Source: Clostridia bacterium
GTDB lineage: Bacteria > Bacillota > Clostridia > Christensenellales > UBA1242
Direction of reading: 5' to 3'
Length of the DNA: 47,933 nucleotides
Assembly (NCBI GenBank): GCA_017619495.1
Contig: JAFZSF010000028.1
Span: forward strand, 1 to 47,933
The translations under genes and the position numbers were made by a program. How positions within the stretch are numbered: the stretch's first letter is position 1; each line of letters begins with the position of its first letter. Positions 20,294 through 38,548 of this stretch are shown piece by piece. A model generated the notes under the pieces. The model had not been told where the DNA came from and did not search any database. It worked only from the letters and a program-made list of their open reading frames with translations.

Positions 20294-20299
20294 GTGTGT

Positions 20300-22939
20300 A
20301 TGGGTTTATTTGCAAGTGATAATACGCGTTCCGTGCGCAAGTTACAACGCATCGCTGATTTGGTGGTAGCGTTAGAAGATGAATACGCCGCACTGGACGA
20401 CCACGCCTTAGTGGCAAAAACCGCCGCATTTAGACAGCGTTTAGCGGCGGGCGAAACTATGGACGATATTTTACCGGAAGCTTTTGCCACGGTGCGTGAA
20501 GCCGCTTACCGTGTCCTCGGACAAAAAGCATATTATGTACAGATTTTGGGTGCTATTGCCCTGCACCAAGGCCGTATCGCCGAGATGAAAACGGGTGAAG
20601 GCAAAACCTTGGTTTCCACCATGCCTGCCTACTTAAATGCCTTAGCGGGTAAAGGTGTACATATTGTTGAAGTCAACGAATACTTGGCCAAGCGCAACAG
20701 CGAATGGATGGGTAAAGTCCACCGCTTCTTAGGCTTAACCGTCGGTTTAAGTTTGTCACGCGCAACCCCCGATGTTAAAAAAGACGCATACAGTCAAGAT
20801 ATTACTTATGTAACCAGCAGTGAAGTTGGTTTTGATTATTTGCGCGATAATGTTGCCCACCACAAGGAAGAACGCGTCCTACGCGGTATGAACTACGCCA
20901 TCATCGATGAAATTGATAGTATTTTAATTGATGAAAGCCGTACTCCTTTAATCATGTCCGCACCGACCAAAGACAATAGCGAACTATACAAAGTGGCGGA
21001 TAAGTTTGCGCGCTCATTGACGCCCGAAGATTACGAAATTGATTTGAAAGAACGCGCCGTGCGTTTTACCGAATCGGGATTCGCCAAAGCCGAACGCGCC
21101 TTTAACATTGAAAACATTAGTGATGCGAATAACATGGAATTGAACCACTTCATCAATAACGCGATGAAAGCGCACCACTTATTTACGCGCGATGTAGATT
21201 ATATCATCAACGCCAATAAAGAAATTATCATTATTGACCAGAATACCGGTCGTGCGATGGTGGGCCGCCGTTACAGTGACGGGTTACACCAAGCAATTGA
21301 AGCTAAGGAAGGCGTGCCAATTAAGAACGAAGATAAAACGGTCGCCACGATTACCATTCAAAATTTGTTCAAATTATACCGCAAATTATCGGGTATGACC
21401 GGTACTGCCAAAACCGAAGAAGACGAATTTAAAAAAATCTACGGTATCGATGTTGTGGCAATTCCGACGAATAAACCTGTCATTCGTGAAGATGCCCCCG
21501 ATGTGATTTTCCAAAACATGCAAAACAAATTAGGTGCGATTTACGAAGATGTGCTCTACCGCTACGAACGCAAACAACCGGTTTTGATTGGTACGACCAC
21601 GATTGAACACAGTGAAGAAATTTCGCGCTACTTAAAATCCAAAAAAGTTCCCCATGTAGTTTTGAACGCCAAAAATCACGAAAAAGAAGCCGATATTGTC
21701 GCGGACGCCGGTCGTTTGGGTAGCGTAACCATTGCCACCAACATGGCGGGTCGTGGTACGGATATTCATTTGGGTGGTAATCCGGAACACATGGCGATGA
21801 CGCAATTAAAAAAAGACGGCTTAACCGACCAAGAGATCTACAATGCAACGGCGTACTTTGAAACCAAAGACGAAAAGATTTTAGCGCACCGTAAATTATT
21901 CAAAGATTATTTGGCACAATTCAAAACCGAAACTGACGCCGAACGCGAAAAAGTTGTCGCACTGGGTGGCTTACACATTATCGGTACCGAACGCCATGAC
22001 AGTCGCCGTATCGATAACCAATTGCGCGGTCGTGCGGGTCGTCAAGGTGACCCCGGCAGTTCAATTTTCTATATTTCTTGTGACGACGAAATCATTAAAC
22101 GCTTCGGTAAAGATGTGATCAGTGGTACCATGCGTTTCTTAAATTTGGACGATGTCCAAAGTAAGATGATTACCCGACTATTTGAACGCGTACAAAAGCG
22201 CGTGGAAGGCTACTATTTCGACAGCCGCCGTGTAACTTTTGAGTACGATAATGTTTTGAATGACCAACGCATGGTAATTTACCGTGAACGCGATAAAATC
22301 TTAGATGGTGAAAATGTCCATGAACAGATTTTAAAATGCTTCCCCGATATCGTTTACAATGTGGTCAGTCAAGCCATCGACCCGATGAGCCACTACTCCG
22401 AATGGGATTTAACCAAAGCCAATCAGATTTTGTCCGACCGTCTTTTCGGTACACACACTAAATACTTAGACCAAAACAATACGGACAAAGCCAATTTTAA
22501 CGATGTCTACGAAATGGTTTTGGACGCGGTCAACGAACAATACGAAGCAAAAATTAAAAAATTAAAAGATGATGGTTTCAACTTTGACGCGTTTGAACGC
22601 GATGTTTTATTATCTGTTGTCGACCGCAAATGGGTTGACCATATTGACGCGATGGTAAACTTGCGTAACGGCATCGGTTTGCGTGGCTACGGCGGAAAGG
22701 ACCCCTTGGTCGAATATCGTCGCGAAGCGATTGGTATGTTCAACCAAATGGTCGAAGGTATTAACAACGAAAGTGCGATTTTCTTATTCAAAGTCCGCAT
22801 TGAACGCAAGGAACCACCCAAACCAGCACCATCAACCGTCATGGCGAAAAATGTGAATTTGAAAAAAGTTGGTCGCAACGATCCCTGTCCGTGCGGCAGT
22901 GGCAAGAAATACAAAAACTGTTGCGGCAAAAACATTTAA
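20300..22939 (+). CDS. secA: Preprotein translocase ATPase SecA
   Basis: Motor of Sec-dependent export. It has Walker A (MKTGEGKT, about residue 100), the DEAD-like site IIDEIDSILIDESRTPL, GMTGTAKTEE, TNMAGRGTDIHLGG and QLRGRAGRQGDPGSS. The C-terminus holds the zinc-binding tail RNDPCPCGSGKKYKNCCG. At 879 aa it is full length. An in-frame GTG at 20294 overlaps the promoter spacing; ATG 20300 fits the TATACT promoter 6 bases upstream. It is divergent from spoIIE and followed after 14 bases by the GH10 gene. Confidence 0.98.
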   Translation: MGLFASDNTRSVRKLQRIADLVVALEDEYAALDDHALVAKTAAFRQRLAAGETMDDILPEAFATVREAAYRVLGQKAYYVQILGAIALHQGRIAEMKTGEGKTLVSTMPAYLNALAGKGVHIVEVNEYLAKRNSEWMGKVHRFLGLTVGLSLSRATPDVKKDAYSQDITYVTSSEVGFDYLRDNVAHHKEERVLRGMNYAIIDEIDSILIDESRTPLIMSAPTKDNSELYKVADKFARSLTPEDYEIDLKERAVRFTESGFAKAERAFNIENISDANNMELNHFINNAMKAHHLFTRDVDYIINANKEIIIIDQNTGRAMVGRRYSDGLHQAIEAKEGVPIKNEDKTVATITIQNLFKLYRKLSGMTGTAKTEEDEFKKIYGIDVVAIPTNKPVIREDAPDVIFQNMQNKLGAIYEDVLYRYERKQPVLIGTTTIEHSEEISRYLKSKKVPHVVLNAKNHEKEADIVADAGRLGSVTIATNMAGRGTDIHLGGNPEHMAMTQLKKDGLTDQEIYNATAYFETKDEKILAHRKLFKDYLAQFKTETDAEREKVVALGGLHIIGTERHDSRRIDNQLRGRAGRQGDPGSSIFYISCDDEIIKRFGKDVISGTMRFLNLDDVQSKMITRLFERVQKRVEGYYFDSRRVTFEYDNVLNDQRMVIYRERDKILDGENVHEQILKCFPDIVYNVVSQAIDPMSHYSEWDLTKANQILSDRLFGTHTKYLDQNNTDKANFNDVYEMVLDAVNEQYEAKIKKLKDDGFNFDAFERDVLLSVVDRKWVDHIDAMVNLRNGIGLRGYGGKDPLVEYRREAIGMFNQMVEGINNESAIFLFKVRIERKEPPKPAPSTVMAKNVNLKKVGRNDPCPCGSGKKYKNCCGKNI

Positions 22940-22953
22940 CTGAGGAGCAATCC

Positions 22954-24468
22954 ATGGATATAAATAAATTACAGGTTGATACAGGAATTGTTGGTGGCTA
23001 TTTTAGTAGTGAACAAATTGATTTATTATCCATTATACAATGTAACGATATCAATGCTTTAATTGATTTTATCCTTCATTGTGACCAAATCAATAACCGT
23101 TATACCGAGAAAGATTTGGCAAAACTAAGCACAACCCCATTGGATACCGCTCAGCGAAAAGTTTTTCAAGATTACCAAGATTCTTTGGTATCGCACAATG
23201 CTAGCCGAGAATTAATCATTCAAAACAAATTAAACCGATGCGGGATTGCGGCAGAAAACCTAGCAGTTGAAACATTACCACAAACTACATCTCATTTTAA
23301 AGAATTAATCCAGCAACAGTACCCCGACCAAGCCGAAGTCATTTTTGATCTATGTCATCACTTCGTTTCGGTGGAAAGCAATCAAATTAAAGATGCCAAC
23401 ACCTACCATGAAATGACTTTTTTAAACCAACATTTAAATACTTTTAACACTATATTAATCGGTTCGGGGAAAATTTATAAAGTCGTTAATGATTTTTACA
23501 GCTCCGACCGTCCTGACAAAAGATTTGATTTTTACCACACCAAAAGGGATTTGGATTTTGCTTATCGTAATAGTAAGCAAGTCCGCTATCACGCCTTGTT
23601 AGTAAAAGACGGCATGGACGGCCTATTTGCCGGAAAATCTAAGGAACAAATTATTACAACGATCAAAGACTATGTCAAAGCGACCATTGATTTTATTAAC
23701 ACATACAATCAAAGTCATCGCTTGAAAATTAATGGTCAAGATGCGCCTTTAATTAACGCCGTTGATTTATTCAATGAAATTGTTAGTTTTGATAAAAATG
23801 CCAATGGTGAATATGATTATGTTTGGGAAAGTAAATACCAAATAACTCTCGATGAACTTTTACCAGCCTTTGATTATGCGTTACAACACAAACCAGCACA
23901 GGTAAACTTTTTGTACAACGAACCATTTTTGGAAGATGAGGAACGCCGAAAAAAAGTGTTAGCAACCTTAGCAAAAATTGATATGAAACGCCCGGGACTA
24001 ATTGACACTTTGGGTTCACAAATGCACATAACGGTTACACCTAATGAAAATAAAATTAAACGGTGCTTTGACGATTTTAAGAAACTACAATCCACCACTG
24101 GTAAACGCATACAAATTACCGAATTTGATATGTCTTTGAGTAAAACCCAAATTCCTAGATTATTTGGCGAACACCCTGATGTAACTTTGGAACAAGTTTA
24201 CGCATATAAACACAAAAAAATTGCTGATATTTCCCATATCATACAAAAATCCGGAGTACAACTTGACGGCATTTCGTATTGGTCATTAACCGATGGGATT
24301 GATTCTAACCTAGAACGCATTCGAACAAATTGTTTACTCAATGGCAGTATCACCGATATTCACCAAGTTCCAACTGCTTGTGGCGGATTATTTTCAACCC
24401 ACAAAAATTTAATTAAACAACAAATTTTCGTTGCAAAACAAAACCCTAATTATTCGTTGCAATATTAA
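22954..24468 (+). CDS. GH10-family glycoside hydrolase (xylanase-like), no signal peptide
   Basis: The C-terminal 330 residues follow the GH10 pattern. The acid/base Glu is E275 in LFNEIVS, the nucleophile E390 in QITEFDMS, and LGSQMHI and YWSLTDG are the other strand motifs. The usual HTLVWH block is altered to YHALLVKDG. The first 150 or so residues are an unrecognised helical extension. There is no signal peptide or membrane helix, so the enzyme looks cytosolic, unlike most bacterial xylanases. GAGGAG precedes the ATG by 6 bases, and the gene follows secA closely, so it is probably cotranscribed. Codons are AT-richer than in secA, which may indicate acquisition. Substrate is unknown. Confidence 0.85.
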   Translation: MDINKLQVDTGIVGGYFSSEQIDLLSIIQCNDINALIDFILHCDQINNRYTEKDLAKLSTTPLDTAQRKVFQDYQDSLVSHNASRELIIQNKLNRCGIAAENLAVETLPQTTSHFKELIQQQYPDQAEVIFDLCHHFVSVESNQIKDANTYHEMTFLNQHLNTFNTILIGSGKIYKVVNDFYSSDRPDKRFDFYHTKRDLDFAYRNSKQVRYHALLVKDGMDGLFAGKSKEQIITTIKDYVKATIDFINTYNQSHRLKINGQDAPLINAVDLFNEIVSFDKNANGEYDYVWESKYQITLDELLPAFDYALQHKPAQVNFLYNEPFLEDEERRKKVLATLAKIDMKRPGLIDTLGSQMHITVTPNENKIKRCFDDFKKLQSTTGKRIQITEFDMSLSKTQIPRLFGEHPDVTLEQVYAYKHKKIADISHIIQKSGVQLDGISYWSLTDGIDSNLERIRTNCLLNGSITDIHQVPTACGGLFSTHKNLIKQQIFVAKQNPNYSLQY

Positions 24469-25198: not shown

Positions 25199-26749
25199 TT
25201 ATTTTTTTATATACTTTACATAGTTTTCTTTATCACTTGTGTCATTTTCAAAATACCTATAAAGATATTCATCAGTTGTATTTTCGCTTGGTAAATAAAC
25301 AGTTTTTAAACTCGTAGGGATATAATAACTCCAACTAACATAATAACTAGGAGAATAACCAGTTTGATGGTAACAATCAACACATGTAATATCCCCAAAA
25401 ACAAATCCTAAGCGTTGACATTTCACCATTGTGTCATATGACCAGTATGAATAATTGCTTGCAAATTCACCAACAAAAGGTAAAGTTATTTCCGTAATAG
25501 CATTACACCCACCTAAAGCACCAATACCTATTTCTATAACGCTGTTTGGAACATAAACCTTTTCTAAACTTTTCCAATTAAAAAACTGGTAATTACTTAA
25601 CCGAAGTTTTCCATCTGGAATGGTAAGCTCAGTAATAATTATATTATCTACATAGATGTTACTAGTATAACATGCGGGGTTTGCATATAAGTTCCCTAAA
25701 TTTACATTTAACCAATTATCTAATTGATTAATATTAATTCTGCTTATAGATGAACAACCTAAGAAAGCATCACTACCAATTGAATTAATATTTGTTAAAA
25801 AATTAACTGTTTCGATTGATTCACAATTTATAAACAAATTACCACTTAATGAGTTAGTATCGACATTAATTTCTTTTACTTCATTACCGTTACAATATAA
25901 TTTTTTTGAATAATAAACAGGATTTGATGTTTGATACAAGAATGTTGATTGCATCCATGATTTTATATCAGTTATATTAACTTTCTCAATATTTACACAA
26001 TCTGCAAAACAACTATCAGCAGTAATTTTGCCATTGAAAAATACATTCTTTAAAGATGTATCACCAGAAAATGATGCATTACCAATAGTAATTGAATTAC
26101 CTAAAAATTCTATACTTGTTAGAGATGTATTATTTGAAAATGCTGCATCTCCAATCGTAACAGAATCAGCTAAAAATTTTAGTTCCGTTAATTTATAATT
26201 GTAAAATGCATAAGAACCAATTTTTGAGGAATTAGTACTCAATTGAATGATTTCGTTATCTTTTTCAAACAGTGTTGCACCATTGCTTATTGGATTTCCT
26301 TTTTCGCTTGAAAACTCAGAAGAATACCAATCTTCCAAACTTTGAATTTTAACACTTTCTATTGCGGCACATCCGTCAAAACATTCATTATACTTTTTTA
26401 TTCCTTCTAAGCTAATAGTTTTGAGATTTTTGCAGTTAGTAAATGCTCCTTTGCCAATTATAGAAATACTATCTGGAATGCTAATTGATTCAATACCAGT
26501 ATTATTTTTAAATGCATTTTCTTTTATTTTAACCACAGGAAGTTTATTGTGTGTCGCTGGAAATATTATATTTTTATCTACACAATCGCCTATTCCTGTA
26601 ACGGAATAGGTTTGCATATCCGAAGATAATTCGAACGAAAGTCTTTCAGAACTTTTGCTACTATCAGTGTTTCCACAAGCAGTAAACAAAAAAACTGGCA
26701 ATAATACAATTATCAATAAAGATAAAATTTTCAAACATTTTGATTTCAT
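25199..26749 (-). CDS. BspA-like leucine-rich-repeat lipoprotein
   Basis: The N-terminus is a lipoprotein signal with lipobox LFTAC (Cys near residue 25), so the protein should be anchored outside the membrane. The rest is built of LRR_5 (Treponema/BspA-type) repeats, seen in phrases such as GDAAFSNNTSLTSIEF and GNASFSGDTSLKNVFF, mixed with the W...SNP.Y...LY.NG units often found in BspA-like surface proteins. Such proteins often mediate adhesion; that is family knowledge. Codon use is strongly AT-biased compared with the neighbours, suggesting recent acquisition. The ATG at 26749 has the promoter TTGACT-17-TACAAT 6 bases before it. Confidence 0.9.
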   Translation of the reverse strand: MKSKCLKILSLLIIVLLPVFLFTACGNTDSSKSSERLSFELSSDMQTYSVTGIGDCVDKNIIFPATHNKLPVVKIKENAFKNNTGIESISIPDSISIIGKGAFTNCKNLKTISLEGIKKYNECFDGCAAIESVKIQSLEDWYSSEFSSEKGNPISNGATLFEKDNEIIQLSTNSSKIGSYAFYNYKLTELKFLADSVTIGDAAFSNNTSLTSIEFLGNSITIGNASFSGDTSLKNVFFNGKITADSCFADCVNIEKVNITDIKSWMQSTFLYQTSNPVYYSKKLYCNGNEVKEINVDTNSLSGNLFINCESIETVNFLTNINSIGSDAFLGCSSISRININQLDNWLNVNLGNLYANPACYTSNIYVDNIIITELTIPDGKLRLSNYQFFNWKSLEKVYVPNSVIEIGIGALGGCNAITEITLPFVGEFASNYSYWSYDTMVKCQRLGFVFGDITCVDCYHQTGYSPSYYVSWSYYIPTSLKTVYLPSENTTDEYLYRYFENDTSDKENYVKYIKK

Positions 26750-26755
26750 CAATTG

Positions 26756-27363: not shown

Positions 27364-29070
27364 TTATCCGTGGTAACGGCGGTAGTATTCACCTTTTAGC
27401 GCCATTAATTCGTCGTGGGTACCGGATTCGACAATGCGTCCGCCTTGGCAAACATAAATGCAGTCGACATTTTGAATCGTTCGTACCTTGGTAGTAACAA
27501 AAACACGGGTACGGTTTTTCAATTTGTTAATGATGATATCATTACAGCGCTTTTCTGATGCCGTGTCAAAGCAATTAAGCGCTTTATTTAAAACCAACAA
27601 ATCTGGGGCGTGTAAAACGGTGCGGGCTAAGTTCACAGCTTGTTGTTCCGCATTAGTTAACATAACCGTATTTTCGGTGATATGTGTATTATAACCGTTG
27701 GGCAACAAACGGATAAATTGGTCGAAACCGAACATGCGTGCGGATTGAATGACATTCTCCGGTAAAGTTTTACCGACCCCGTACATTATGTTTTCTGCAA
27801 TCGTACCATCTAATAAAAACGGACGATCCGAACACATACCCACGCGTTCGTAGAACTTTTGACTGCGGATACGCGCCAAATTAATCTCGTTGATTTTAAT
27901 TTCCCCCGCCTTGGGTAATTCAAACTTAGTCATTAAATCCACAATCGCCGAGGCGGTACCGCTCTCTTCTTCCGAAAACGCCACGGTACTGCCAAACGGA
28001 ATAGTAAAGCTAATATCTTTTACTTTTTCGGTCGAAACATGGTCAAACACAATATTACCATCGATTTTTTTAATCTTTACATCTTCGTCGGCGGTAACAT
28101 CATCAGGACAATCAATAATACCAAAGAAAACTTTGGCGTAACTTTCGGTCGGTTGAATTACATTAGACGCCGTGGTAATAATTTTAGTATTGGACAAGAA
28201 ACGCGAGCTGTACAATAAAAAGGCGGGCAAAATTGCGAAGTCTGACATTGACAACGAACCGTTAATCGCCAAAATACCAAACACTACTGTAATCGCCAAA
28301 TACATAAAGTTGGACAAGAAACTGATATACCCATCGTTCAAACCGACCACAGTATCGGTGGCAATCACATTTTTTCCCGTGTTAATTGATTCAAATTCGT
28401 CGTCACCTTTAATACCGTTTTCTTGGAAGAAACCATGCAAAGTTGCGTGCTGTTCAATAAAATTGTAAATTTTGGAACTGGCTTCTTCACGGCGCGTATA
28501 ATACTTTTGTGTTTTCTTAACTACAATTTTGGCAATGATTAAAGTCACTGGCAACAAGGCAATGACCAAGAAACTCAAAGTGACATTCAACGACAACATC
28601 ATAACAATATTTAAAATGAAGAAGAAAATCGTTCGCGCAATAGAATAAATCATCGCCAAACATTGTTGCAACAAAACACGCCCCACGGCAAATTGGTGCG
28701 TAGTTTCGCTGATTTCAAATTTATCGATAAAGGACAACGGCACGACATCTAACTTACGACGCGCGTCGTACATAATGCCCAGCGTAACTTTGTACTCATA
28801 ATTAATAATGATACACTTACACGCCAAAGCGAAAGTTTCCGACAAAATGCACAACACTAAATACAAAATTAGCGGTTGTAAAACTACGGCAATATTATGG
28901 TGTAACCCCCAATCCTCAAAAGTGTTCAAAGCTTGGGCGGTCAAATTAGGCATGTATGAATACATCGCGATGCCGATTAGCCCAAGTAGAATAACCAGCA
29001 AGATGCGCCATTTCAGTGGTTTAAAATAGGACATTACACGCATAAAGATGGACTGCTTGTGTTTTTTCAT
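27364..29070 (-). CDS. ABC exporter half-transporter with degenerate ATPase domain (2)
   Basis: Residues 1-320 form a normal type IV exporter membrane domain with about six helices. The nucleotide-binding domain is recognisable by length and spacing, but no catalytic motif survives. The A-loop region is shortened; Walker A reads SEEESGTAS (near residue 365, no GKS/T); the Q-loop reads MCSDRPF; the signature LSGGQ reads LTNAEQQ; Walker B plus Glu reads LLVLNKAL; the switch His is Lys (VTTKVRTI). The frame is intact over 568 aa. The start overlaps the upstream partner by 4 bases, with GGAGGAGG upstream, so the two are made together and probably form a heterodimer. Confidence 0.9.
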   Translation of the reverse strand: MKKHKQSIFMRVMSYFKPLKWRILLVILLGLIGIAMYSYMPNLTAQALNTFEDWGLHHNIAVVLQPLILYLVLCILSETFALACKCIIINYEYKVTLGIMYDARRKLDVVPLSFIDKFEISETTHQFAVGRVLLQQCLAMIYSIARTIFFFILNIVMMLSLNVTLSFLVIALLPVTLIIAKIVVKKTQKYYTRREEASSKIYNFIEQHATLHGFFQENGIKGDDEFESINTGKNVIATDTVVGLNDGYISFLSNFMYLAITVVFGILAINGSLSMSDFAILPAFLLYSSRFLSNTKIITTASNVIQPTESYAKVFFGIIDCPDDVTADEDVKIKKIDGNIVFDHVSTEKVKDISFTIPFGSTVAFSEEESGTASAIVDLMTKFELPKAGEIKINEINLARIRSQKFYERVGMCSDRPFLLDGTIAENIMYGVGKTLPENVIQSARMFGFDQFIRLLPNGYNTHITENTVMLTNAEQQAVNLARTVLHAPDLLVLNKALNCFDTASEKRCNDIIINKLKNRTRVFVTTKVRTIQNVDCIYVCQGGRIVESGTHDELMALKGEYYRRYHG

Positions 29071-30815
29071 GCTGGCTCGCCCTCCTCCTGTGCGTTCTGT
29101 AAAAAGAATGCGGCATACTCTTGATTATCCGCCAACAATGATGCATGAGTACCCTTAATGTAACTATGGTCAGTTTTAGCAAAGAACACTTCGTCGGCAT
29201 TTTCACAAACCAAAGAACGATTGGTAGTAAAGATGCACGCTTTATTTTCGGCGCGTAATTTTTGCAGAATACTACGCACAATCGTATTACGCAGGTTGAC
29301 AAAACTGCCGTCAAAAACATAGAATTCCGCCGGTTTTAAAATACAGCGTGCCACATTAATTAACGCTTTAATATTTTCAGGTAGTTGCGAACGTACCGAT
29401 AATGGCGTGTCCAAAAACGATGGTAAGACCGCTAAATTAGCCGCCCCAATTTCATTAAAGGTCGCCAAAATTTCCTCATCAGTCACCGTGGGATTAAATA
29501 ATTGAATATTTTCACGCACCGTACCCGTAATAAATTCTGGATATGTCGGACAATACGAAATAATTTTGGAACGATAATATTGCTTATTAAGTTCTTTAAT
29601 GTTAACGCCATTGACCAATACCACACCGGTAGTCGGTTCAATATAGCGTAACAGAATTTTAATCAAAGTGGTACGCCCCACACCGACTTCACCACAGAAT
29701 GCTAACATTTTACCTTTGTGTAATTCTACTGATAAATTTTCGATTGTTTTACGACCATTCCAGTAACGGTGGTTTACTTGGTACATGACCAATGAGCTAC
29801 CAAAATCGGTATCCAGTTGTGTAATGCCATTGTCAATATCTTCTTCGGGTAATTGCATAAACTGGTCAATGCGTTCGTAAGCGATGCGACCGCGCGTCAT
29901 CGGATTAATTACCAAATTGAAAATATTAAGCGTAGCCGCAGTACACAAAGTGATGTATTGTAAAATCGTATTAATGATGACCAATTGTTCCGCAACATTT
30001 TGCGGCGTAACCGACAATGCACCGGCCAAGATAATTCCGAAAGTAACAATGCCAAAAATAATATTATTAGTACATTCAAAAACATGCTTTGATTGGTCAA
30101 TGTCATAAACTTCACGCGATAATTTTTCGTTCTGGACTGCCGCATCTTTTAAGCGTTCCGACTGTTTACCCAAAATACGAATATCGCGCGCCCCCGCAAT
30201 ACTTTCACGGGTGGTCACAATGGATTTATCATAAGCCACCACGGCTTCCGCCATACGCTTAGCAATAACTTTACGGTGAATTAACAAGATACCAATTTCC
30301 ACTAAAATCGCCACCACAATGAACAAAACATAAATGGGCGACAAAGTCATAATTAAAATACAACTACCCAAAATGGTGATGATAAAGTAAACATACGCGC
30401 GCAAGTATTGTTCATGGCGGTATTTGACCCAATAAGAATCTTCAATCATACAAGACAAAAATTTACTGGTGCCCCATTCGTATAATACATTGGTCGGAAC
30501 ACGGGTCATTTTTTCGTAAAGCATGCGGCGCGCGTTAGAGCGACAATGAATACCGTAAACACTAACTCGATTACGGGCGTATAACGATACAAAGAAAATC
30601 ACGACAAGTAGTACCAAAACGATGGCGGCGTTAATTAAGAAATGCCCCACTGCGGGCAAAGTACCAGCGTCGTTGTTAATTTCTTCGGTCACCAAATTTT
30701 TCAAAACCATGGGGTACAAAATATTCAGAATTTCCATCAGACCAAAGAAGAAAACAGCCCAAAACAAATCCTTTGCTGCACCGCGCTGAAAACGATAGAT
30801 CCGCATGTTACGCAT
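29067..30815 (-). CDS. ABC exporter half-transporter with degenerate ATPase domain (1)
   Basis: Membrane domain of about 320 residues with the usual coupling-helix region (ESIAGARDIRILGKQSERL). The ATPase domain keeps the fold pattern but has changed key residues: Walker A GEVGVGRTT has Arg381 in place of the catalytic Lys; the Q-loop Gln is Thr (SYCPTYPEF); the signature is LPENIKA rather than LSGGQ; Walker B ends FDGS so the catalytic Glu is Gly; the switch His is absent (IFTTNRSL). First gene of the two-gene unit. The promoter TTGCGA-17-TATATT ends 8 bases before the ATG; a second ATG at 30806 is possible. Confidence 0.9.
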   Translation of the reverse strand: MRNMRIYRFQRGAAKDLFWAVFFFGLMEILNILYPMVLKNLVTEEINNDAGTLPAVGHFLINAAIVLVLLVVIFFVSLYARNRVSVYGIHCRSNARRMLYEKMTRVPTNVLYEWGTSKFLSCMIEDSYWVKYRHEQYLRAYVYFIITILGSCILIMTLSPIYVLFIVVAILVEIGILLIHRKVIAKRMAEAVVAYDKSIVTTRESIAGARDIRILGKQSERLKDAAVQNEKLSREVYDIDQSKHVFECTNNIIFGIVTFGIILAGALSVTPQNVAEQLVIINTILQYITLCTAATLNIFNLVINPMTRGRIAYERIDQFMQLPEEDIDNGITQLDTDFGSSLVMYQVNHRYWNGRKTIENLSVELHKGKMLAFCGEVGVGRTTLIKILLRYIEPTTGVVLVNGVNIKELNKQYYRSKIISYCPTYPEFITGTVRENIQLFNPTVTDEEILATFNEIGAANLAVLPSFLDTPLSVRSQLPENIKALINVARCILKPAEFYVFDGSFVNLRNTIVRSILQKLRAENKACIFTTNRSLVCENADEVFFAKTDHSYIKGTHASLLADNQEYAAFFLQNAQEEGEPA

Positions 30816-30823
30816 CTAACCTT

Positions 30824-30852
30824 AATATACATAAAAATCCGTTACTTCGCAA
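30824..30852 (-). promoter_or_regulatory. Promoter of the ABC exporter pair
   Basis: -35 TTGCGA (30847-30852), a 17-bp spacer and -10 TATATT (30824-30829), ending 8 bases before the ATG at 30815. It overlaps the presumed 5' region of the divergent cwlD. Confidence 0.6.
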
Positions 30853-30857
30853 TTGGT

Positions 30858-31520
30858 TTGTGTGCTGTCATAATCTTACTGGGGCTTTGGTTAGATGCCG
30901 TACAAAGCACTGCCACCGTAATTGCTCCGGAACAGTTTCATGTGGTTTTAGATGCGGGACATGGGGGATACGACAATGGTGCTTGCGTCGACGGAGTCAG
31001 TGAAGCCGGACTCAATTTACAAATCGTCAAAGTCTTGGCGACCGAACTACGCAATCGTGGCTGTGCCGTATCCTTAACGCGGGTGGATAGCGAAAGTCTG
31101 AACCCACCCTATGCGAAAAACAAAAAAGTGGCGGACATGGCCAAACGCCGTGAAAAAATTCGCACACTAAACCCAGACTTAGTTATTTCAATTCATTTGA
31201 ACACTTACCCATTAAGCTCCGTTAGCGGACTGCAATGCTTTTATGCCAACGAAACCACCGGTAGCCAAGACTATGCCACCGCGATTCAAGACCAATTTAA
31301 CCGAAGCGGTTTACCTATTTATAAAGCAGTGAAGCCAACAGATTTTAATTTAGTGGAACATTCGCCTTGCCCCGCGGTTTTGATTGAGTGTGGCTTTTTA
31401 ACCAACCCACGCGAACGACAATTATTACAGACTGCCAGTTATCAACAAATTTTAGCGTACAACATTGCCACCGCCGTCATCACCGCTAAGCACAAATCCA
31501 GCACGATTCGCGTATGCTGA
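30858..31520 (+). CDS. cwlD: N-acetylmuramoyl-L-alanine amidase CwlD (start uncertain)
   Basis: Amidase_3 enzyme. In spore formers CwlD cleaves the peptide from muramic acid as the first step towards muramic-delta-lactam in spore cortex. The zinc ligands are visible in VVLDAGHGGYD and SIHLN, with the catalytic Glu in LIECGFLTN. One N-terminal hydrophobic segment (signal anchor) precedes the domain. No ATG or GTG is found at a sensible place: the frame runs open far upstream into the divergent ABC gene. TTG at 30858 is the only standard start close by; an ATC at 30837 would give a better signal anchor, ending ...RYFAIGLCAV. The next gene begins 20 bases after the stop. Confidence 0.88.
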   Translation: MCAVIILLGLWLDAVQSTATVIAPEQFHVVLDAGHGGYDNGACVDGVSEAGLNLQIVKVLATELRNRGCAVSLTRVDSESLNPPYAKNKKVADMAKRREKIRTLNPDLVISIHLNTYPLSSVSGLQCFYANETTGSQDYATAIQDQFNRSGLPIYKAVKPTDFNLVEHSPCPAVLIECGFLTNPRERQLLQTASYQQILAYNIATAVITAKHKSSTIRVC

Positions 31521-31539
31521 AACAAAGGAGGTACCAAAG

Positions 31540-31758
31540 ATGTGTCATTGTCCTACTGTCGGCGATTTAGTCCACTGGGCTTTCCGTTGTGTGCGTTGCG
31601 GTAACCATTGTCAAACCAGCCATTGCCAATCAAATAGCAATTGCCACCAAAGCTGTGCTAGTTATTGTTGCTCATGTACGCAAAATAACAATCAAACCAA
31701 CGCTTGCCCCATCGCCCCTAATCATAATTGCACTAGTAATACTAGCGGAAGATACTAA
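31540..31758 (+). CDS. Cys/His-rich mini-protein, 72 aa
   Basis: The ATG at 31540 has a near-perfect ribosome binding site (AAAGGAGGT). The 72 residues contain 13 cysteines and 6 histidines, with CxC and CxxC pairs (CHC, CVRC, CCSC) and Ser/Asn/Gln-rich linkers, but no signal peptide. I do not know the family. Cotranscription with cwlD and the composition suggest a metal-binding or disulfide-linked spore component, possibly coat-associated, but this is inference. Confidence 0.75.
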   Translation: MCHCPTVGDLVHWAFRCVRCGNHCQTSHCQSNSNCHQSCASYCCSCTQNNNQTNACPIAPNHNCTSNTSGRY

Positions 31759-31806: not shown

Positions 31807-32145
31807 ATGCAATCATACACTACGCAAGCACACCAACGCAATTATCAAGGAAATGTCATACTCCCCAACAAGTTTAATGTTACCAAGCGTAAAGCGACAC
31901 GCGGCATAGCGGTCTGGATTTTGGCGCTGACGGTTGCGATAACCAGCAGTTTGTTAGGAGTTGTGACATTACATAATCAACAATTAAAACACCGGATTCA
32001 AGCTTTGGAAACACAAAGTACCGCTGTGACAGCGCCGACCACCACCAACAACAAACCAACACGCCGCGGTAAAACTTTACCCAGCGTGCCAATTTCCGAA
32101 CAACAACACGAAACCGAAAACCTACCCTTACTGAATCAACATTAA
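31807..32145 (+). CDS. Single-pass membrane protein, 112 aa
   Basis: Layout: about 35 cytoplasmic basic residues, one membrane helix (about residues 34-54), a short coiled-coil-like stretch (HNQQLKHRIQALETQ), then a Thr/Pro-rich tail. This resembles FtsL/DivIC-like small proteins in shape only. GGAGGT stands just before ATG 31807, which is preferred to the in-frame ATG at 31780. Third gene after cwlD. It shares its TTAA stop with the convergent ABC-F gene. Confidence 0.7.
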   Translation: MQSYTTQAHQRNYQGNVILPNKFNVTKRKATRGIAVWILALTVAITSSLLGVVTLHNQQLKHRIQALETQSTAVTAPTTTNNKPTRRGKTLPSVPISEQQHETENLPLLNQH

Positions 32146-33689
32146 ACCAAAACGCGGTCGTGCATTTTATCAGCCGTAATTTCAATCACACGGGTTGCCA
32201 CCGTATTAATAATTTCTTCGTCGCTAGTGTAAAACAACATTACGGCTTTGGTGCGTTCCATACCTTGGTTCAAGGCGGTAATACTTTCCAAATCCAAATG
32301 GTTGGTTGGTTCGTTGAAAATTAATAAGTTACCTTGCTCTAACATAGTTTTGGCTAGCATACAACGCACGCGTTCCCCACCCGATAACACATTAGCTTTT
32401 TTTAAGGCTTCTTCGCCCGAAAACAACATACGCCCTAGCCAACTACGGATAAAAGTTTCGTTCGTATCCGTCGAATATTGTTTCAACCAATCCAACAAGT
32501 TCAAATCGCACTTTTCAAAATAACTACGGTAATCCACCGGCAAATAAGAAGTTGTAATCGTTTTCCCAATCGTCACGGTACCACTATCGGGCTTTTCCAA
32601 GCCCATAATGCAGTTAAACAACTTATCCATGCGGAAACTCTTATCGGTTAAGAAAGCAATCTTTTCGCCTTTGTTCACACGGAAAGAAACATTGCGGAAA
32701 AAACCATCGACAGTTAAATTTTCCACCGCCAAAATTTCATTACCCGGCTCACGCGCACATTCAAAGTTGATGTACGGATATTTACGCGAAGACGGTTTAA
32801 TGTCTTCAATCGTTAATTTTTCCAATTCCTTTTTACGGCTAGTCGCTTGACGCGACTTACTGGCATTAGCAGAGAAACGCGCAATGAAGTCTTTTAATTC
32901 TTGGGCGCGGGCTTCGGCTTTTTTGTTCGCCTCTTTTTGTTGTTTTAATAATAATTGACTGGTTTCATACCAAAAATCATAGTTACCCACAAACATGTTA
33001 ATTTGGTTAAAATCCACATCACAAATATGCGTACAAACTTGGTTTAAGAAATGACGGTTGTGCGAAACGATAATGGTCGTATTTTTGAAATCCAGTAAAA
33101 ATTCTTCTAACCAATGCGTACCCGCCAAATCAAGGTTATTGGTCGGCTCATCGAGAATCAAAATATCTGGATTACCAAACAAAGCACGCGCCAACAAAAC
33201 CTTAACTTTAATTTTAACATCAAGGTCTTTCATCTGTTGGTCGTGTAAATCTTCATCAACACCCAAGCCCGATAACATAATGCGGGCATTACTGTCAGCA
33301 TCCCAACCGTCCAGTTCAGCAAATTCGGCTTCCAAAGCTCCCAGTTCATTTCCCTGTGCCTCGGTCATTTCCGGCAAAGCATAGTATTTCTCTTTCAAGG
33401 CAATAATTTCTGCCAAGCGTTGGTGTCCCCCGATTACCGTGTTGATAACGGTCAAATCATCAAAGGCGTTTTGGTTTTGCGCCAAAGTGGAAATGCGTTG
33501 GTTCTTGCCAACAATCACTTCACCTTTGTTCGGTGTAATTTCACCCGACAAAATTTTCAAGAAAGTTGACTTACCCGCGCCATTCGCCCCAATAATGCCA
33601 TAACATTCGCCGGGTAAAAATTTCAAATTGACATCTTTGAACAAAACCCGTTTACCGTACTGTAAAGATACATTTACTACTTGAATCAT
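32142..33689 (-). CDS. ABC-F ATPase, YkpA/YbiT-like, with degenerate second domain
   Basis: ABC-F proteins bind ribosomes and have two ATPase domains on one chain. The first is intact: GANGAGKST, LILDEPTNNLD and VSHNRHF. The second keeps LSGGERVRC, but Walker A reads LTDKSFRMDK, Walker B reads LLIFNEPTNHLD (Asp changed to Asn), and the switch His is Ser (YTSDEE). YkpA/YbiT-type members already have an unusual second Walker A, but this one lacks more. The linker region (about residues 240-285) is rich in Lys and Arg. The start ATG 33689 (residue 29 of a longer frame) fits TATACT, which ends 7 bases before it. Confidence 0.9.
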   Translation of the reverse strand: MIQVVNVSLQYGKRVLFKDVNLKFLPGECYGIIGANGAGKSTFLKILSGEITPNKGEVIVGKNQRISTLAQNQNAFDDLTVINTVIGGHQRLAEIIALKEKYYALPEMTEAQGNELGALEAEFAELDGWDADSNARIMLSGLGVDEDLHDQQMKDLDVKIKVKVLLARALFGNPDILILDEPTNNLDLAGTHWLEEFLLDFKNTTIIVSHNRHFLNQVCTHICDVDFNQINMFVGNYDFWYETSQLLLKQQKEANKKAEARAQELKDFIARFSANASKSRQATSRKKELEKLTIEDIKPSSRKYPYINFECAREPGNEILAVENLTVDGFFRNVSFRVNKGEKIAFLTDKSFRMDKLFNCIMGLEKPDSGTVTIGKTITTSYLPVDYRSYFEKCDLNLLDWLKQYSTDTNETFIRSWLGRMLFSGEEALKKANVLSGGERVRCMLAKTMLEQGNLLIFNEPTNHLDLESITALNQGMERTKAVMLFYTSDEEIINTVATRVIEITADKMHDRVLV

Positions 33690-33696
33690 ACTCGGC

Positions 33697-33725
33697 AGTA
33701 TACCACAGAACCCACCCGAATTAAA
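33697..33725 (-). promoter_or_regulatory. Promoter of the ABC-F gene, leaderless geometry
   Basis: -10 TATACT (33697-33702) ends 7 bases before the ATG at 33689. The -35 is weak (TTTAAT at 33720-33725, 17-bp spacer). Confidence 0.5.
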
Positions 33726-33740
33726 GCGTAATTTTAACCA

Positions 33741-33769
33741 ACAAAAAAGCAGTGTTGCCACTGCTCTTT
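33741..33769 (-). terminator. Intrinsic terminator of the DUF6273-like gene
   Basis: On the minus strand AGCAGTG pairs with CACTGCT around a 4-base loop, followed by six T residues. It lies 17 bases downstream of the stop at 33786. Confidence 0.8.
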
Positions 33770-33785
33770 GCATGATTACAAACGA

Positions 33786-34937
33786 TTAAGCTTCGTGGGT
33801 TTGGCGGGTACGACGCACTTTCACAATCACACCAACTACCACCAAAGTCAAACCAACCACGCCTAAAATACAAACCGTCATAAATAATACTTTCAACCAA
33901 TCATCGTCCCACCAATTTTTGCTGCTGGCACGATTGATATGTTCTGCGTATTCTTCATCAATTTTGGATATATCCAAATGGACAGCGGGACGCACGCCAG
34001 CCGCTTGGGCGACGGTACGCGCATGGATATAAGATTCTTGCGACTCACTACCATCCTTAGTTTTATTTGCCGAAAGTACCAGTGCATAATAACTTTCACT
34101 TTCTACACCAATGTCCGGATTACGCAACCATACGCGGTTAGCGATGGTAGTATCTTGCCATTGCAAAGTATTGGGTCTTAATACTTCTTTTGCGTCATCT
34201 AAGACTTGCCAAACCTGTAAATCACCCACCGATGGCAACCACAAACGATCACTACTATCCAAATCAAAGTAGGCGGTTAATTGGTTTTTATCGGCTTCAA
34301 CTTCATCGCGTTCAACTTGGGTTAAACCCTGTTTGGCGTAAGCCATGTATACAATTTTACGGTTAGCGTCATCATTGGCTTCGTTATGTCCTGCCACGAA
34401 GCCTGGAATTACTTTGTCTTTGTACTTAGCATACGCTTTATCGTCAAGCATGGTTTTCGCTGCTTCGTACAAGAATTTACGAATATCGCTACCGCCATCT
34501 TGATCTAAGATAACTTGACCATTTTCTTGTCCACTGGTATAAGCATCATTTTTCCAAACGGTTTTACTGTAACCATTGGTCCAAATATTGGCGCCATCTT
34601 GATAAAGATTAATGCCGGCACGGGCGGTTTTGTTAAAGTGTGTTGAAGTGTATGGATCAGCCATCCAGAAAGTTGCCACGCCATCATCAACTTTGGTTAA
34701 GCGCCAATCATGACCAAAAAATTTAAAAATGTTACCTTCAATTAAACCAGTTTTATCGACGGCATAACAGCCAGCATCATCGAACAAAATTTGACCGCTT
34801 AAATCGCCGTTAGCGTTACTGGCCGGCTGTAAAGACATAGTTTGCGCTTGCATAACTGGTACCAAAGTAGCCGCACCCACCACCAATAATGCTAAAACAA
34901 AAACCAATGTGCTGAATAATAGATTGATTTTTTTCAT
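33786..34937 (-). CDS. DUF6273-like cell-surface protein with C-terminal anchor
   Basis: The protein has an N-terminal signal peptide (KKINLLFSTLVFVLALLVV...), an extracellular domain of about 300 residues and a C-terminal membrane helix (about residues 345-370) ending in a basic tail. Phrases such as FKFFGHDWRLTKVDDGVATFWM and AGVRPAVHLDIS match the DUF6273 pattern found in many clostridial surface proteins; function unknown. There is no LPXTG sorting motif. The ATG 34937 has AAGGGG about 8 bases upstream, and the promoter TTGACT-17-TATCAT gives a leader of about 20 bases, unlike most units here. Confidence 0.85.
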   Translation of the reverse strand: MKKINLLFSTLVFVLALLVVGAATLVPVMQAQTMSLQPASNANGDLSGQILFDDAGCYAVDKTGLIEGNIFKFFGHDWRLTKVDDGVATFWMADPYTSTHFNKTARAGINLYQDGANIWTNGYSKTVWKNDAYTSGQENGQVILDQDGGSDIRKFLYEAAKTMLDDKAYAKYKDKVIPGFVAGHNEANDDANRKIVYMAYAKQGLTQVERDEVEADKNQLTAYFDLDSSDRLWLPSVGDLQVWQVLDDAKEVLRPNTLQWQDTTIANRVWLRNPDIGVESESYYALVLSANKTKDGSESQESYIHARTVAQAAGVRPAVHLDISKIDEEYAEHINRASSKNWWDDDWLKVLFMTVCILGVVGLTLVVVGVIVKVRRTRQTHEA

Positions 34938-34960
34938 TTTATATCCCCTTTCAAGTATCA

Positions 34961-34989
34961 ATGATAGCCAAAAAAAGGGGAAAAGTCAA
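34961..34989 (-). promoter_or_regulatory. Promoter of the DUF6273-like gene (with leader)
   Basis: -35 TTGACT (34984-34989), a 17-bp spacer and -10 TATCAT (34961-34966). It overlaps the 3' end of the upstream gene by a few bases. Confidence 0.65.
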
Positions 34990-35513: not shown

Positions 35514-38500
35514 TTATTTTACAGGCTGTGCAGAGTTGGGAGCGCTTTTATCGGTTATTACTTTTACTTTTTTCTCACGACAGAAAATCGCATAGAACGC
35601 TGGCACCACGATTAAAGTGGTTAAAGTACCAAATAGTAAGCCACCAATGGAAACCACCGCCAACGGCTTAATCATATCGCTACTGCCCCCGGGGTTAAAT
35701 AGTGACCAACCAAACGCCATGGGTACCATCGCTAAAATCGTCGTCAGCGCTGTCATGAAAATCGGACGCATACGCGTGTGCATGGCGGTAACCAACGCTT
35801 CTTTAACCGATAAACCATCAGCACGGGCTTGGTTCGTATAATCGACCGCCAAAATACCATTGTTAATGACCACACCCATCAAAATTAACAAGCCAATCAA
35901 AGCCGGAATTGACAACGGCATGCCGGCAAAGAACAAAAAGAAGAAAGCACCGGTAAAGCCCAATGGTACACAAATTAAGATAATGAACGGCATCAAGAAA
36001 GATTGGAAAATGGCGACCATGACTAAATAAATCAAAGCAAAACCAACAGCCAAGGCGATGCCCATGGATTGATAACTTTCTTGCATTTCACCTTCCATAC
36101 CATTATCCAAAATGGTAACTCCCGCATCTTTGAAATCGCCATGGATTAATTCATCAACATAGCGGTTCATTAATGATTGAATTTGATTAGTATTAGCACT
36201 GGGGTTGGCTTTAACTTCGATGACCGCAGCATACTTGCCGTTTTGCTTCAAAATTTGTTGCACCCCGTCGTCATAACTTTCATAAATGATTGAACGAATA
36301 TTCAAGTTCTCTTTTTGGTCGGCGAACTTCGCGTCAATCGCTTTACCAAATTGTCCCAGGGTATTAAACGCCGCACTGTAATCACTGTTATCAACCGTTA
36401 ATGTAACCGAAACACTATTGGCTACCATATTGCTAGCCATACTGGCGGCCGTAACATCAATATCACTATAATATGTTTGGTCGAAATTTCGGAAGGCCTT
36501 GTACAACTTTTCACTAGCCTCGTCGGTCGTCAGGCTGCGTTGATCTTTCAATTTAATTTCGACCGACATACCAATTCCATTAGAAAGAATATTGGAGCCG
36601 TTATCATAGGCAATTACGCATTTATCTAAGTCGTTACCTAAGACATCAACTACCTGTTGGTATAAAGGTTGCGCCAAGGTTACTTTTTCGGCAACTGCTT
36701 GACCTTTGGCATTCAAAGTAGCCGTAACGGTCAAAGCACCTTCATCAGTTGACGGCAGCAAAATAAAGCCGTTAATCATCATCAAAGCGCCCGAACCCAC
36801 AAACAAAATCAATGCTAATAACACGGTCAACCATTTCTTGTCAATCGCAAAGCGCAACACCTTGTCAAAAACATGGTTAGCACCGGTGGTAAATTTACGC
36901 CAACTCGCACCCATTTTTTGCCAAAAGTTGGGCTTTCCTGTCGTAGCCACTTTGGTAATTGACGGATTAATTTTGAATGTAGACACAATCGACGGTAAGA
37001 ACATAACCGCAACTACAAACGAACACAATAGTGACAAGATAACCACCCAAACCAAATCAGTAAAGATTTGCATGATTAAACCGTCTAAGAAGAACATTGG
37101 GAAGAATACACAAATCGTAGTCAACGACGAAGCCAACATCGCCAGCATAATTTGTGACGCCCCTTTGATACACGCTTCGCGTAACGGGAACCCTTTACTG
37201 CGTAAACGGAAAATGTTTTCCAAAACCACGACCGAGTTATCAACCAACATACCAACCGCTAACGCTAAGCCGGACATCGAAATGATATTTAAGTTGATAC
37301 CCATGAAGTACATTGCGACAAAGGTACCAACCAAGGCTAACGGAATCGAAATTCCAATCGCCAAAGTCATTTTGAACGAACGCAAGAATAAGAACAAAAT
37401 CAATAAAGCCAATAAGCCACCAACGACCAAATTTTCCCCCACCGAACCCACAGTTTGGTTAATGTATTCGCCTTGGTTGTTGGTAATATCATAGTTAAAG
37501 CCCGGATTTTCCGCTTTAATTTTATCCAAAGTAACGATCACATTGGCGCAAGTTTCAGCCGTTACCGCGTTACCAGTTTTTTGAATTTGAATACTATAAG
37601 TATCAACCAAACCATGATCGGCAGAATTTTGCCACGCTTGGTTGTGGTCTTGTCCTTCAATTTTAGTTTCAATATTAGATGAAATTGAACCAACCCCTAC
37701 CGTAGCCGAAATTTTATCCAAAACATTGTTTTTGAACCAAGTCGTATCCCCAGCTTTATCCGTATGTGAAACAGTAACGAACATAACTGGCAATAAAGTG
37801 GGATCAATTTTTAAGATTTGTTGATTATAAACCGTATCATGCGCCCCAATATTATCCAGTCCCATATTTTCCAGCGCCATATTTAATTCGGTTAAATCGA
37901 CCGTGGCATCATTATAATATTCCAAAGTCATCATCACCACACCCATGGATAACATAGTCGTGCTACGCGTATTTTTAATCCCCGAAATATTCGCTACCGC
38001 TTGGGTCGCATCGGTCGTCAATTTTTCCAATTCAGCCGCAGTCGGCATCACTTCGGGCAAGACCAACCCCGCCATAATGGTTTGACCTTGTTTAAGATAA
38101 TATTGCGCAATTTGGTTCGCAGTTAACCCCTGCAAAGCAACTGGGTCATTCACATGCGCCATAAAATCATCTTTATCGGCATTGTAAGTGGCATCATCAT
38201 CGTAGTAGGCACGCGCATTGGTAAGCACCAAGATTATGAAGTCTTGTTGAAACTTAGTTGCTTTGGTAGCATCGTAATCTGGGTCAGAGGGGTCGGTATA
38301 GGTTTTAAGTAAAGCACCCAAGCGATTCATCGTTTTAGTTTGGTCAGGATTTAAGACCACCACCGCATACGGTAAATTCATGGACGGGAATAAATCGACC
38401 GTCATTTTAGAAAAGGCAAAAACACCCAAAATTAGGATCGCCATAATACAGACAAAAACGGTATAGGGTTTATGTACCCCGATTTTAGCGAACCAATTTT

Positions 38501-38540
38501 CTTTAATATTTTGATCTAACTGTGCTTGATTTTGTGACAT
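35514..38540 (-). CDS. RND-family efflux transporter (HAE1/SwrC type) with porter insert
   Basis: Proton-driven exporter of about 1008 aa with 12 membrane helices in the usual two halves. TM4 carries GLALAVGMLVDNSVVVLENI with the coupling Asp; TM10 has GVVINNGILAVDYTNQ. Between the first porter strand (MNLPYAVVVLN) and AELEKLTTDATQAVANISGI, where relatives have only about 12 residues, there are roughly 105 residues of unfamiliar Asp/Tyr/Thr-rich sequence. No membrane fusion protein lies next to it. The ATG 38540 is taken because CATAAT ends 8 bases before it, with a perfect TTGACA 17 bp up. Confidence 0.93.
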   Translation of the reverse strand: MSQNQAQLDQNIKENWFAKIGVHKPYTVFVCIMAILILGVFAFSKMTVDLFPSMNLPYAVVVLNPDQTKTMNRLGALLKTYTDPSDPDYDATKATKFQQDFIILVLTNARAYYDDDATYNADKDDFMAHVNDPVALQGLTANQIAQYYLKQGQTIMAGLVLPEVMPTAAELEKLTTDATQAVANISGIKNTRSTTMLSMGVVMMTLEYYNDATVDLTELNMALENMGLDNIGAHDTVYNQQILKIDPTLLPVMFVTVSHTDKAGDTTWFKNNVLDKISATVGVGSISSNIETKIEGQDHNQAWQNSADHGLVDTYSIQIQKTGNAVTAETCANVIVTLDKIKAENPGFNYDITNNQGEYINQTVGSVGENLVVGGLLALLILFLFLRSFKMTLAIGISIPLALVGTFVAMYFMGINLNIISMSGLALAVGMLVDNSVVVLENIFRLRSKGFPLREACIKGASQIMLAMLASSLTTICVFFPMFFLDGLIMQIFTDLVWVVILSLLCSFVVAVMFLPSIVSTFKINPSITKVATTGKPNFWQKMGASWRKFTTGANHVFDKVLRFAIDKKWLTVLLALILFVGSGALMMINGFILLPSTDEGALTVTATLNAKGQAVAEKVTLAQPLYQQVVDVLGNDLDKCVIAYDNGSNILSNGIGMSVEIKLKDQRSLTTDEASEKLYKAFRNFDQTYYSDIDVTAASMASNMVANSVSVTLTVDNSDYSAAFNTLGQFGKAIDAKFADQKENLNIRSIIYESYDDGVQQILKQNGKYAAVIEVKANPSANTNQIQSLMNRYVDELIHGDFKDAGVTILDNGMEGEMQESYQSMGIALAVGFALIYLVMVAIFQSFLMPFIILICVPLGFTGAFFFLFFAGMPLSIPALIGLLILMGVVINNGILAVDYTNQARADGLSVKEALVTAMHTRMRPIFMTALTTILAMVPMAFGWSLFNPGGSSDMIKPLAVVSIGGLLFGTLTTLIVVPAFYAIFCREKKVKVITDKSAPNSAQPVK

Positions 38541-38548
38541 AATCACTT

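Follow-up and report, generated by a model that had tools for sequence, protein, structure and literature searches.

The window, that is, the whole stretch of 47,933 nucleotides that was analysed, carries two adjacent minus-strand genes that each encode one half of a type IV ABC exporter, termed here half A and half B. These and two nearby genes are as follows.

29067-30815, minus strand: half A, type IV ABC exporter half-transporter of 582 amino acids, first gene of the pair; orthologues in 17 genomes
27364-29070, minus strand: half B, type IV ABC exporter half-transporter of 568 amino acids, second gene of the pair; orthologues in 17 genomes
20294-22939, plus strand: SecA (assigned from sequence), neighbour of the pair on one side in most relatives within the genus
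30642-31520, plus strand: Amidase_3 (CwlD-like) cell-wall amidase open reading frame (Pfam), divergent from half A in the genus

Both open reading frames of the pair are intact, the start codon of half B overlaps the stop codon of half A in the sequence ATGA, and each half matches ABC_membrane and ABC_tran with scores above the Pfam gathering threshold. The original prediction of two adjacent, full-length exporter halves is thus borne out. Over their full length, single-chain models of the two halves (mean pLDDT near 69) are matched by Foldseek to TmrAB, TM287/288, MsRv1273c/72c, BmrCD and other type IV exporters. Pfam and these moderate-confidence models give each half six membrane helices fused to an ABC ATPase domain, and the overall exporter fold appears to be kept in both. 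The halves are encoded together, with the overlap in the window and direct adjacency in all 17 genomes that have the pair. TM287/288, TmrAB, BmrCD, EfrCD and MsRv1273c/72c have the same arrangement of adjacent genes, with six helices and an ATPase domain in each half; heterodimeric exporters with one degenerate site are the best fold matches of the pair and are also found among its sequence matches. Details of the ATP sites are not readable from these single-chain models of moderate confidence, in which pLDDT falls below 50 at the tip of the half A P-loop (residues 377-381).

A BspA-type LRR_5 protein with a lipoprotein-like start is encoded near the pair (25199-26752, minus strand), and a GH10-like protein (22891-24468, plus strand; Pfam 68 bits) overlaps the end of the SecA gene, in a genome of about 0.84 Mb. 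Small Cys/His/Pro-rich open reading frames lie beside the pair in several genera (31465-31758, plus strand, in the window; L110:9980-10330; L112:5219-5524), and the one in the window has no Pfam match. A YbiT-like ABC-F protein (32142-33773, minus strand) has a second Walker A without the GxxGxGK[ST] pattern (FLTDKSFRMDKL). None of 30 aligned family members has an intact second P-loop; the copies of G000 and G009 also carry Asn for the second Walker B Asp and lack the switch His. This protein shows a degeneration of its own, against the background of an intact exporter pair. The protein encoded next to it (33786-34961, minus strand) has no Pfam match; its counterparts in G001, G005, G006 and G009 share 33-48% identity with it across most of the protein. 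An RND (ACR_tran) transporter is also encoded near the pair (35514-38546, minus strand). RND transporters are usually driven by ion gradients, and the neighbourhood thus holds an export system of such a family.

Nucleotide-binding sites of the two halves

Alignment with intact relatives places the nucleotide-binding motifs of the pair as follows.

29670-29693, minus strand: P-loop of half A, GEVGVGRT (residues 375-382), with its glycines retained and Arg381 in place of the Walker A Lys
29370-29384, minus strand: signature of half A, degenerate, LPENI (478-482) instead of LSGGQ
29307-29324, minus strand: Walker B of half A, FYVFDG (498-503), which retains Asp502 but has Gly503 at the position of the catalytic acid
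27949-27972, minus strand: half B former P-loop EEESGTAS (367-374), with no nucleotide-binding pattern
27646-27660, minus strand: half B degenerate signature LTNAE (471-475)
27583-27600, minus strand: half B degenerate Walker B LLVLNK (491-496), Asp replaced by Asn495 and Glu by Lys496
27490-27492, minus strand: half B position of the switch His, occupied by Thr527

In half A the Q-loop Gln is replaced by Thr424 and the switch residue by Asn532, and the alignment confirms every substitution that had been named for this half, including the absent switch His. The further statement that both halves have lost all motifs goes too far. Across the 10 genomes of the genus, half A keeps Gly375, Gly378, Gly380 and Thr/Ser382 of the P-loop; position 381 is always basic (Arg in eight, Lys in G009 and G007); and the Walker B residue 502 is Asp in nine and Asn in G007. 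Nine of the 10 half A sequences thus have the makeup of a degenerate ATP-binding site, with P-loop and Walker B Asp kept and the catalytic Glu lost, the Walker A Lys position being Arg in eight of the nine and Lys in one (G009). In half B the Q-loop Gln is replaced by Asp415. The predicted absence of a P-loop, the LTNAE signature and the degenerate Walker B all stand for this half, but the switch His is not replaced by Lys: Lys528 aligns with the Arg that comes after the switch His in intact relatives, and the switch position itself is Thr527.

ABC exporters are defined by ATP hydrolysis, and in an ordinary heterodimer of this kind one site is dead. In this pair neither site, in the window or elsewhere in the clade, combines a Walker A Lys, a catalytic Glu, a switch His and an opposing LSGGQ. 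The missing catalytic residues at both sites support the original view that the complex should not hydrolyse ATP, to the extent that activity can be predicted from sequence. The pattern does not reflect a base rate, since GxxGxGK[ST] is present in all 29 intact-type halves of the same family and order, and DEATS and the switch HR in all 19 B-type intact halves. A lineage-wide loss of ABC motifs is ruled out as well, as the other exporter pair in the same genome is intact.

In intact heterodimeric relatives, it is the degenerate-site half that half A resembles and the consensus half that half B resembles. In the closest intact pairs, which include those of G056 and G017, an Asp-Asp Walker B and a Gln switch mark the A half, as is usual in degenerate-site halves, and consensus DEATS and a switch His mark the B half. 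By this resemblance to the A half of TM287/288-type relatives, the surviving half A site is probably the ancestral non-hydrolysing one, and the site lost would be the ancestral hydrolysing one. Unlike heterodimers of the TM287/288 type, the pair is also without its consensus hydrolysing site.

Two other genera that carry the pair, g4 and g7, show other stages. Several P-loops are still intact in both halves of these, with signatures and Walker B Asp gone, whereas in g1 the half B P-loop is lost. In half A of g4 and g7 the Walker B Asp is Asn, and one g7 member (G114) has Thr at the Walker A Lys position. Accordingly, motif loss is graded between species, and nucleotide binding at half A may not be general to the clade.

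Distribution, descent and selection

At E <1e-70, half B is found in 17 of 309 genomes of the family and is absent from the other 292. The carriers comprise every genome sampled from three genera, with 10 from the genus, two from g4 and five from g7; the 39 other genera of the family have no match at this threshold. No further member of this kind is present among 297 genomes of the order at E <1e-60, where the remaining three matches (L092-L094) are intact at Walker A, Walker B and the switch. A scan of named genomes gives six orthologues, all in metagenome-assembled genomes (MAGs). These are titled Clostridia, with one titled Prevotella, and their source labels include water buffalo rumen, water buffalo cecum and water deer cecum.

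In a maximum-likelihood tree of 17 half A and 16 half B sequences, each half forms one clade with 100/100 support. The stems of the two clades are long, 1.83 changes per site for half A and 1.55 for half B, and the branching broadly matches between them. Single clades, long stems, matching branching and constant adjacency point to an old pair that has been inherited together and that diverged fast once and then settled.

Between orthologous pairs dN is 0.07-0.29 and pS is 0.69-0.79; synonymous differences are thus saturated, and where they exceed the limit of correction no exact omega is used, so that the conclusion is limited to dN being far below dS. The ATPase domain evolves no faster than the membrane domain in most comparisons. 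Search matches across the 17 genomes contain no in-frame stops. Contig ends cut two copies (half A of G004 and half B of G002), and half A of G008 (L115, L064) has one frameshift, in its last ~30 codons, with the expected C-terminal residues in another frame; this may be an assembly error.

The intact exporter pair on contig C6 serves as a control. Between G000 and G001 its two proteins are 79 and 83% identical, and degenerate halves B and A 88 and 83%. Between G000 and G006 the intact pair is at about 81%, half B at 81% and half A at 76%; between G000 and G009 the figures are about 51, 69 and 62%. In these genomes the degenerate pair reaches roughly the conservation of the intact exporter pair, and this strengthens the conclusion of purifying selection. 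Relaxed selection or stop codons in relatives had been named beforehand as evidence that would tell against a maintained pair; both were looked for, with the outcome just given. Low dN, open frames and conservation at the level of an intact exporter rule out simple decay, as originally argued. Decaying pseudogenes or an assembly artefact, for which the G008 frameshift and the reduced size of these genomes (about 0.6-1.2 Mb) might speak, are already refuted as a general explanation by the same data, with frames open in 17 genomes that include MAGs from several projects.

Entropy windows, ranked across the ATPase domains of the clade with low percentages for conserved windows, indicate where constraint lies. 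The half A Walker A is in the lowest 10% and Walker B in the lowest 8%; the half A signature is at 87% and the switch at 85%, and the half B Walker A is at 98%. Q-loop/coupling-groove segments are conserved in both halves (lowest 19% in half A and 5% in half B), as is the helix after the signature (lowest 6% and 9%, respectively). Several charged membrane positions are fixed or nearly so in the clade, and such charges are absent or rare in intact relatives.

30732-30734, minus strand: Glu28 of half A, within TM1; invariant in the 16 clade sequences that cover it, Val/Ala/Thr in 10 intact relatives
28633-28635, minus strand: Arg146 of half B, within TM3; shared by 16 of 17 clade members, with Asn/Ser/Thr/Gly instead in 19 intact relatives
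28201-28203, minus strand: Arg290 of half B, within TM6; shared by 17 of 17 clade members, whereas most intact relatives have Gln and one of 19 has Arg
28837-28839, minus strand: Glu78 of half B, within TM2; shared by 14 of 17 clade members and by none of 19 intact relatives
28795-28797, minus strand: Glu92 of half B, where TM2 ends; shared by 17 of 17 clade members and by none of 19 intact relatives

The alignment with intact relatives is at about 25% identity, and single membrane columns are of limited certainty. Charged residues in the membrane core average 4.6 in half B vs. 2.6 in intact relatives, and 2.8 in half A vs. 5.4. As core charge is up in B and down in A, only the fixed or near-fixed sites are claimed and not a general gain. 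Judged from these alignments, the link between membrane and ATPase domains is kept while catalysis is lost, with constraint moved to the coupling segments, to the half A P-loop and Walker B, and to membrane charges.

Possible modes of action

Catalytic parts are lost in both halves, yet the pair is under strong selection in 17 genomes of related gut bacteria, which suggests that it now moves or senses something without ATP-powered pumping. The probability that it is a non-hydrolysing heterodimer held by selection is put at about 0.85. Channel, sensor, scramblase and scaffold, the functions first proposed, are possibilities.

The pair would be an old heterodimeric type IV exporter, akin to TM287/288, TmrAB and BmrCD, in which ATP hydrolysis has been given up. 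Half A may bind ATP without hydrolysing it, and the bound site would serve as clamp or sensor between the ATPase domains of the two halves, like an ordinary non-hydrolysing site. Degenerate sites can hold ATP as a lasting clamp, and the degenerate site of ABCG5/G8 has Arg for Lys (PMC7756269). Since no catalytic site is left, the pair is not expected to run on ATP hydrolysis, and an ion or substrate gradient might instead drive the substrate. Precedents from the degenerate-site clamp, LmrA, MsbA and SbmA point the same way, to a secondary transporter, facilitator or ATP-gated channel. The chances are about even that this account holds as a whole, from a former exporter without hydrolysis, with its membrane domains and their mechanical link to the ATPase domains kept, to ATP binding at half A and movement down a gradient. 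Gradient-driven movement with ATP, if any, as a regulator is plausible at somewhat less than even odds. It is a tentative suggestion that the pair, having lost all hydrolysis in one bacterial lineage, stands as a natural intermediate between ATP-driven exporters and secondary transporters without ATPase domains, being driven by an ion or substrate gradient and using its ATPase domains as an ATP-responsive gate.

Type IV membrane domains can be driven by ion gradients, as in the ion-coupled modes of LmrA and MsbA, and the pair may operate similarly. LmrA without its Walker A Lys has 4% of normal ATPase activity, but when ATP-bound it carries out ion-coupled HEPES+ transport, and ATP-dependent ion-exchange currents remain (PMC6155054); ATP binding without hydrolysis thus supports one transport mode. 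Ethidium transport by LmrA did need hydrolysis, which counts against the analogy (PMC6155054). The membrane domain of MsbA alone performs proton-coupled drug transport (PMC4979069). Unlike the pair, wild-type LmrA and MsbA are normal ATPases. The transporter SbmA descends from ABC membrane domains and is driven by protons (PMC13316013), and the pair resembles SbmA-like peptide transporters (SLiPT) in having exporter membrane domains without ATP-hydrolysis power and with conserved membrane charges. SLiPT proteins have neither ATPase domains nor coupling helices (PMC13316013), whereas the pair keeps and conserves both ATPase domains and has its coupling segments among the most conserved windows. 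SLiPT proteins have a ladder of conserved membrane glutamates. In the pair, half A Glu28 and half B Glu78 and Glu92 are conserved in the clade, but they do not by themselves show a ladder, and the analogy is loose, given the opposite shifts in membrane-core charge. CFTR (ABCC7) and SUR (ABCC8/9) are exporter folds reused as a channel and a regulator, with an ATP-holding, non-hydrolysing site such as the pair may have. They keep one catalytic site; the pair keeps none.

Perhaps the pair is a non-transporting scaffold or sensor for an envelope protein, for example the neighbouring amidase or the Sec machinery, with its ATPase domains as binding platforms. SUR, a regulator of a potassium channel, offers a precedent as an ABC protein without transport (PMC7756269). 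The order SecA, pair, Amidase_3 is conserved within the genus and, in part, also in g4 and g7, and in G056 and G017 an intact pair lies two genes from SecA, which also hints at its common descent with the degenerate pair. This role is less likely, as the neighbourhood is broken in G055, G096, G077 and G114, so that no partner gene is obligatory, and the membrane domains are retained over their whole length. A slow ATPase, in which noncanonical residues at the half A site permit a very slow cycle, would fit the retained P-loop glycines, Thr382 and Asp502 and the residual activity of the LmrA mutant (PMC6155054); it is improbable because substitutions that vary from species to species have removed the catalytic acid, the switch residue and the opposing signature alike. 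Mixed transporters, in which each half pairs with an intact half from contig C6 encoded in the same genome, are very improbable, given the overlapping and always adjacent genes and changes in both halves on the same lineages.

The literature searched holds no described exporter in which both sites are dead and conserved, though this is weak evidence, since subscription papers were mostly outside the search; the term "pseudo-ATPase" together with ABC transporter yields nothing beyond an unrelated dynein paper. If the preferred reading of a non-hydrolysing heterodimer is true, a full-length exporter heterodimer that lost hydrolysis at both sites has been kept by selection across three genera, and ABC ATPase domains would be useful without catalysis. 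The graded states between species, those of g4 and g7 vs. g1, would then offer a system for studying how a pump is converted to a gated or gradient-driven protein.
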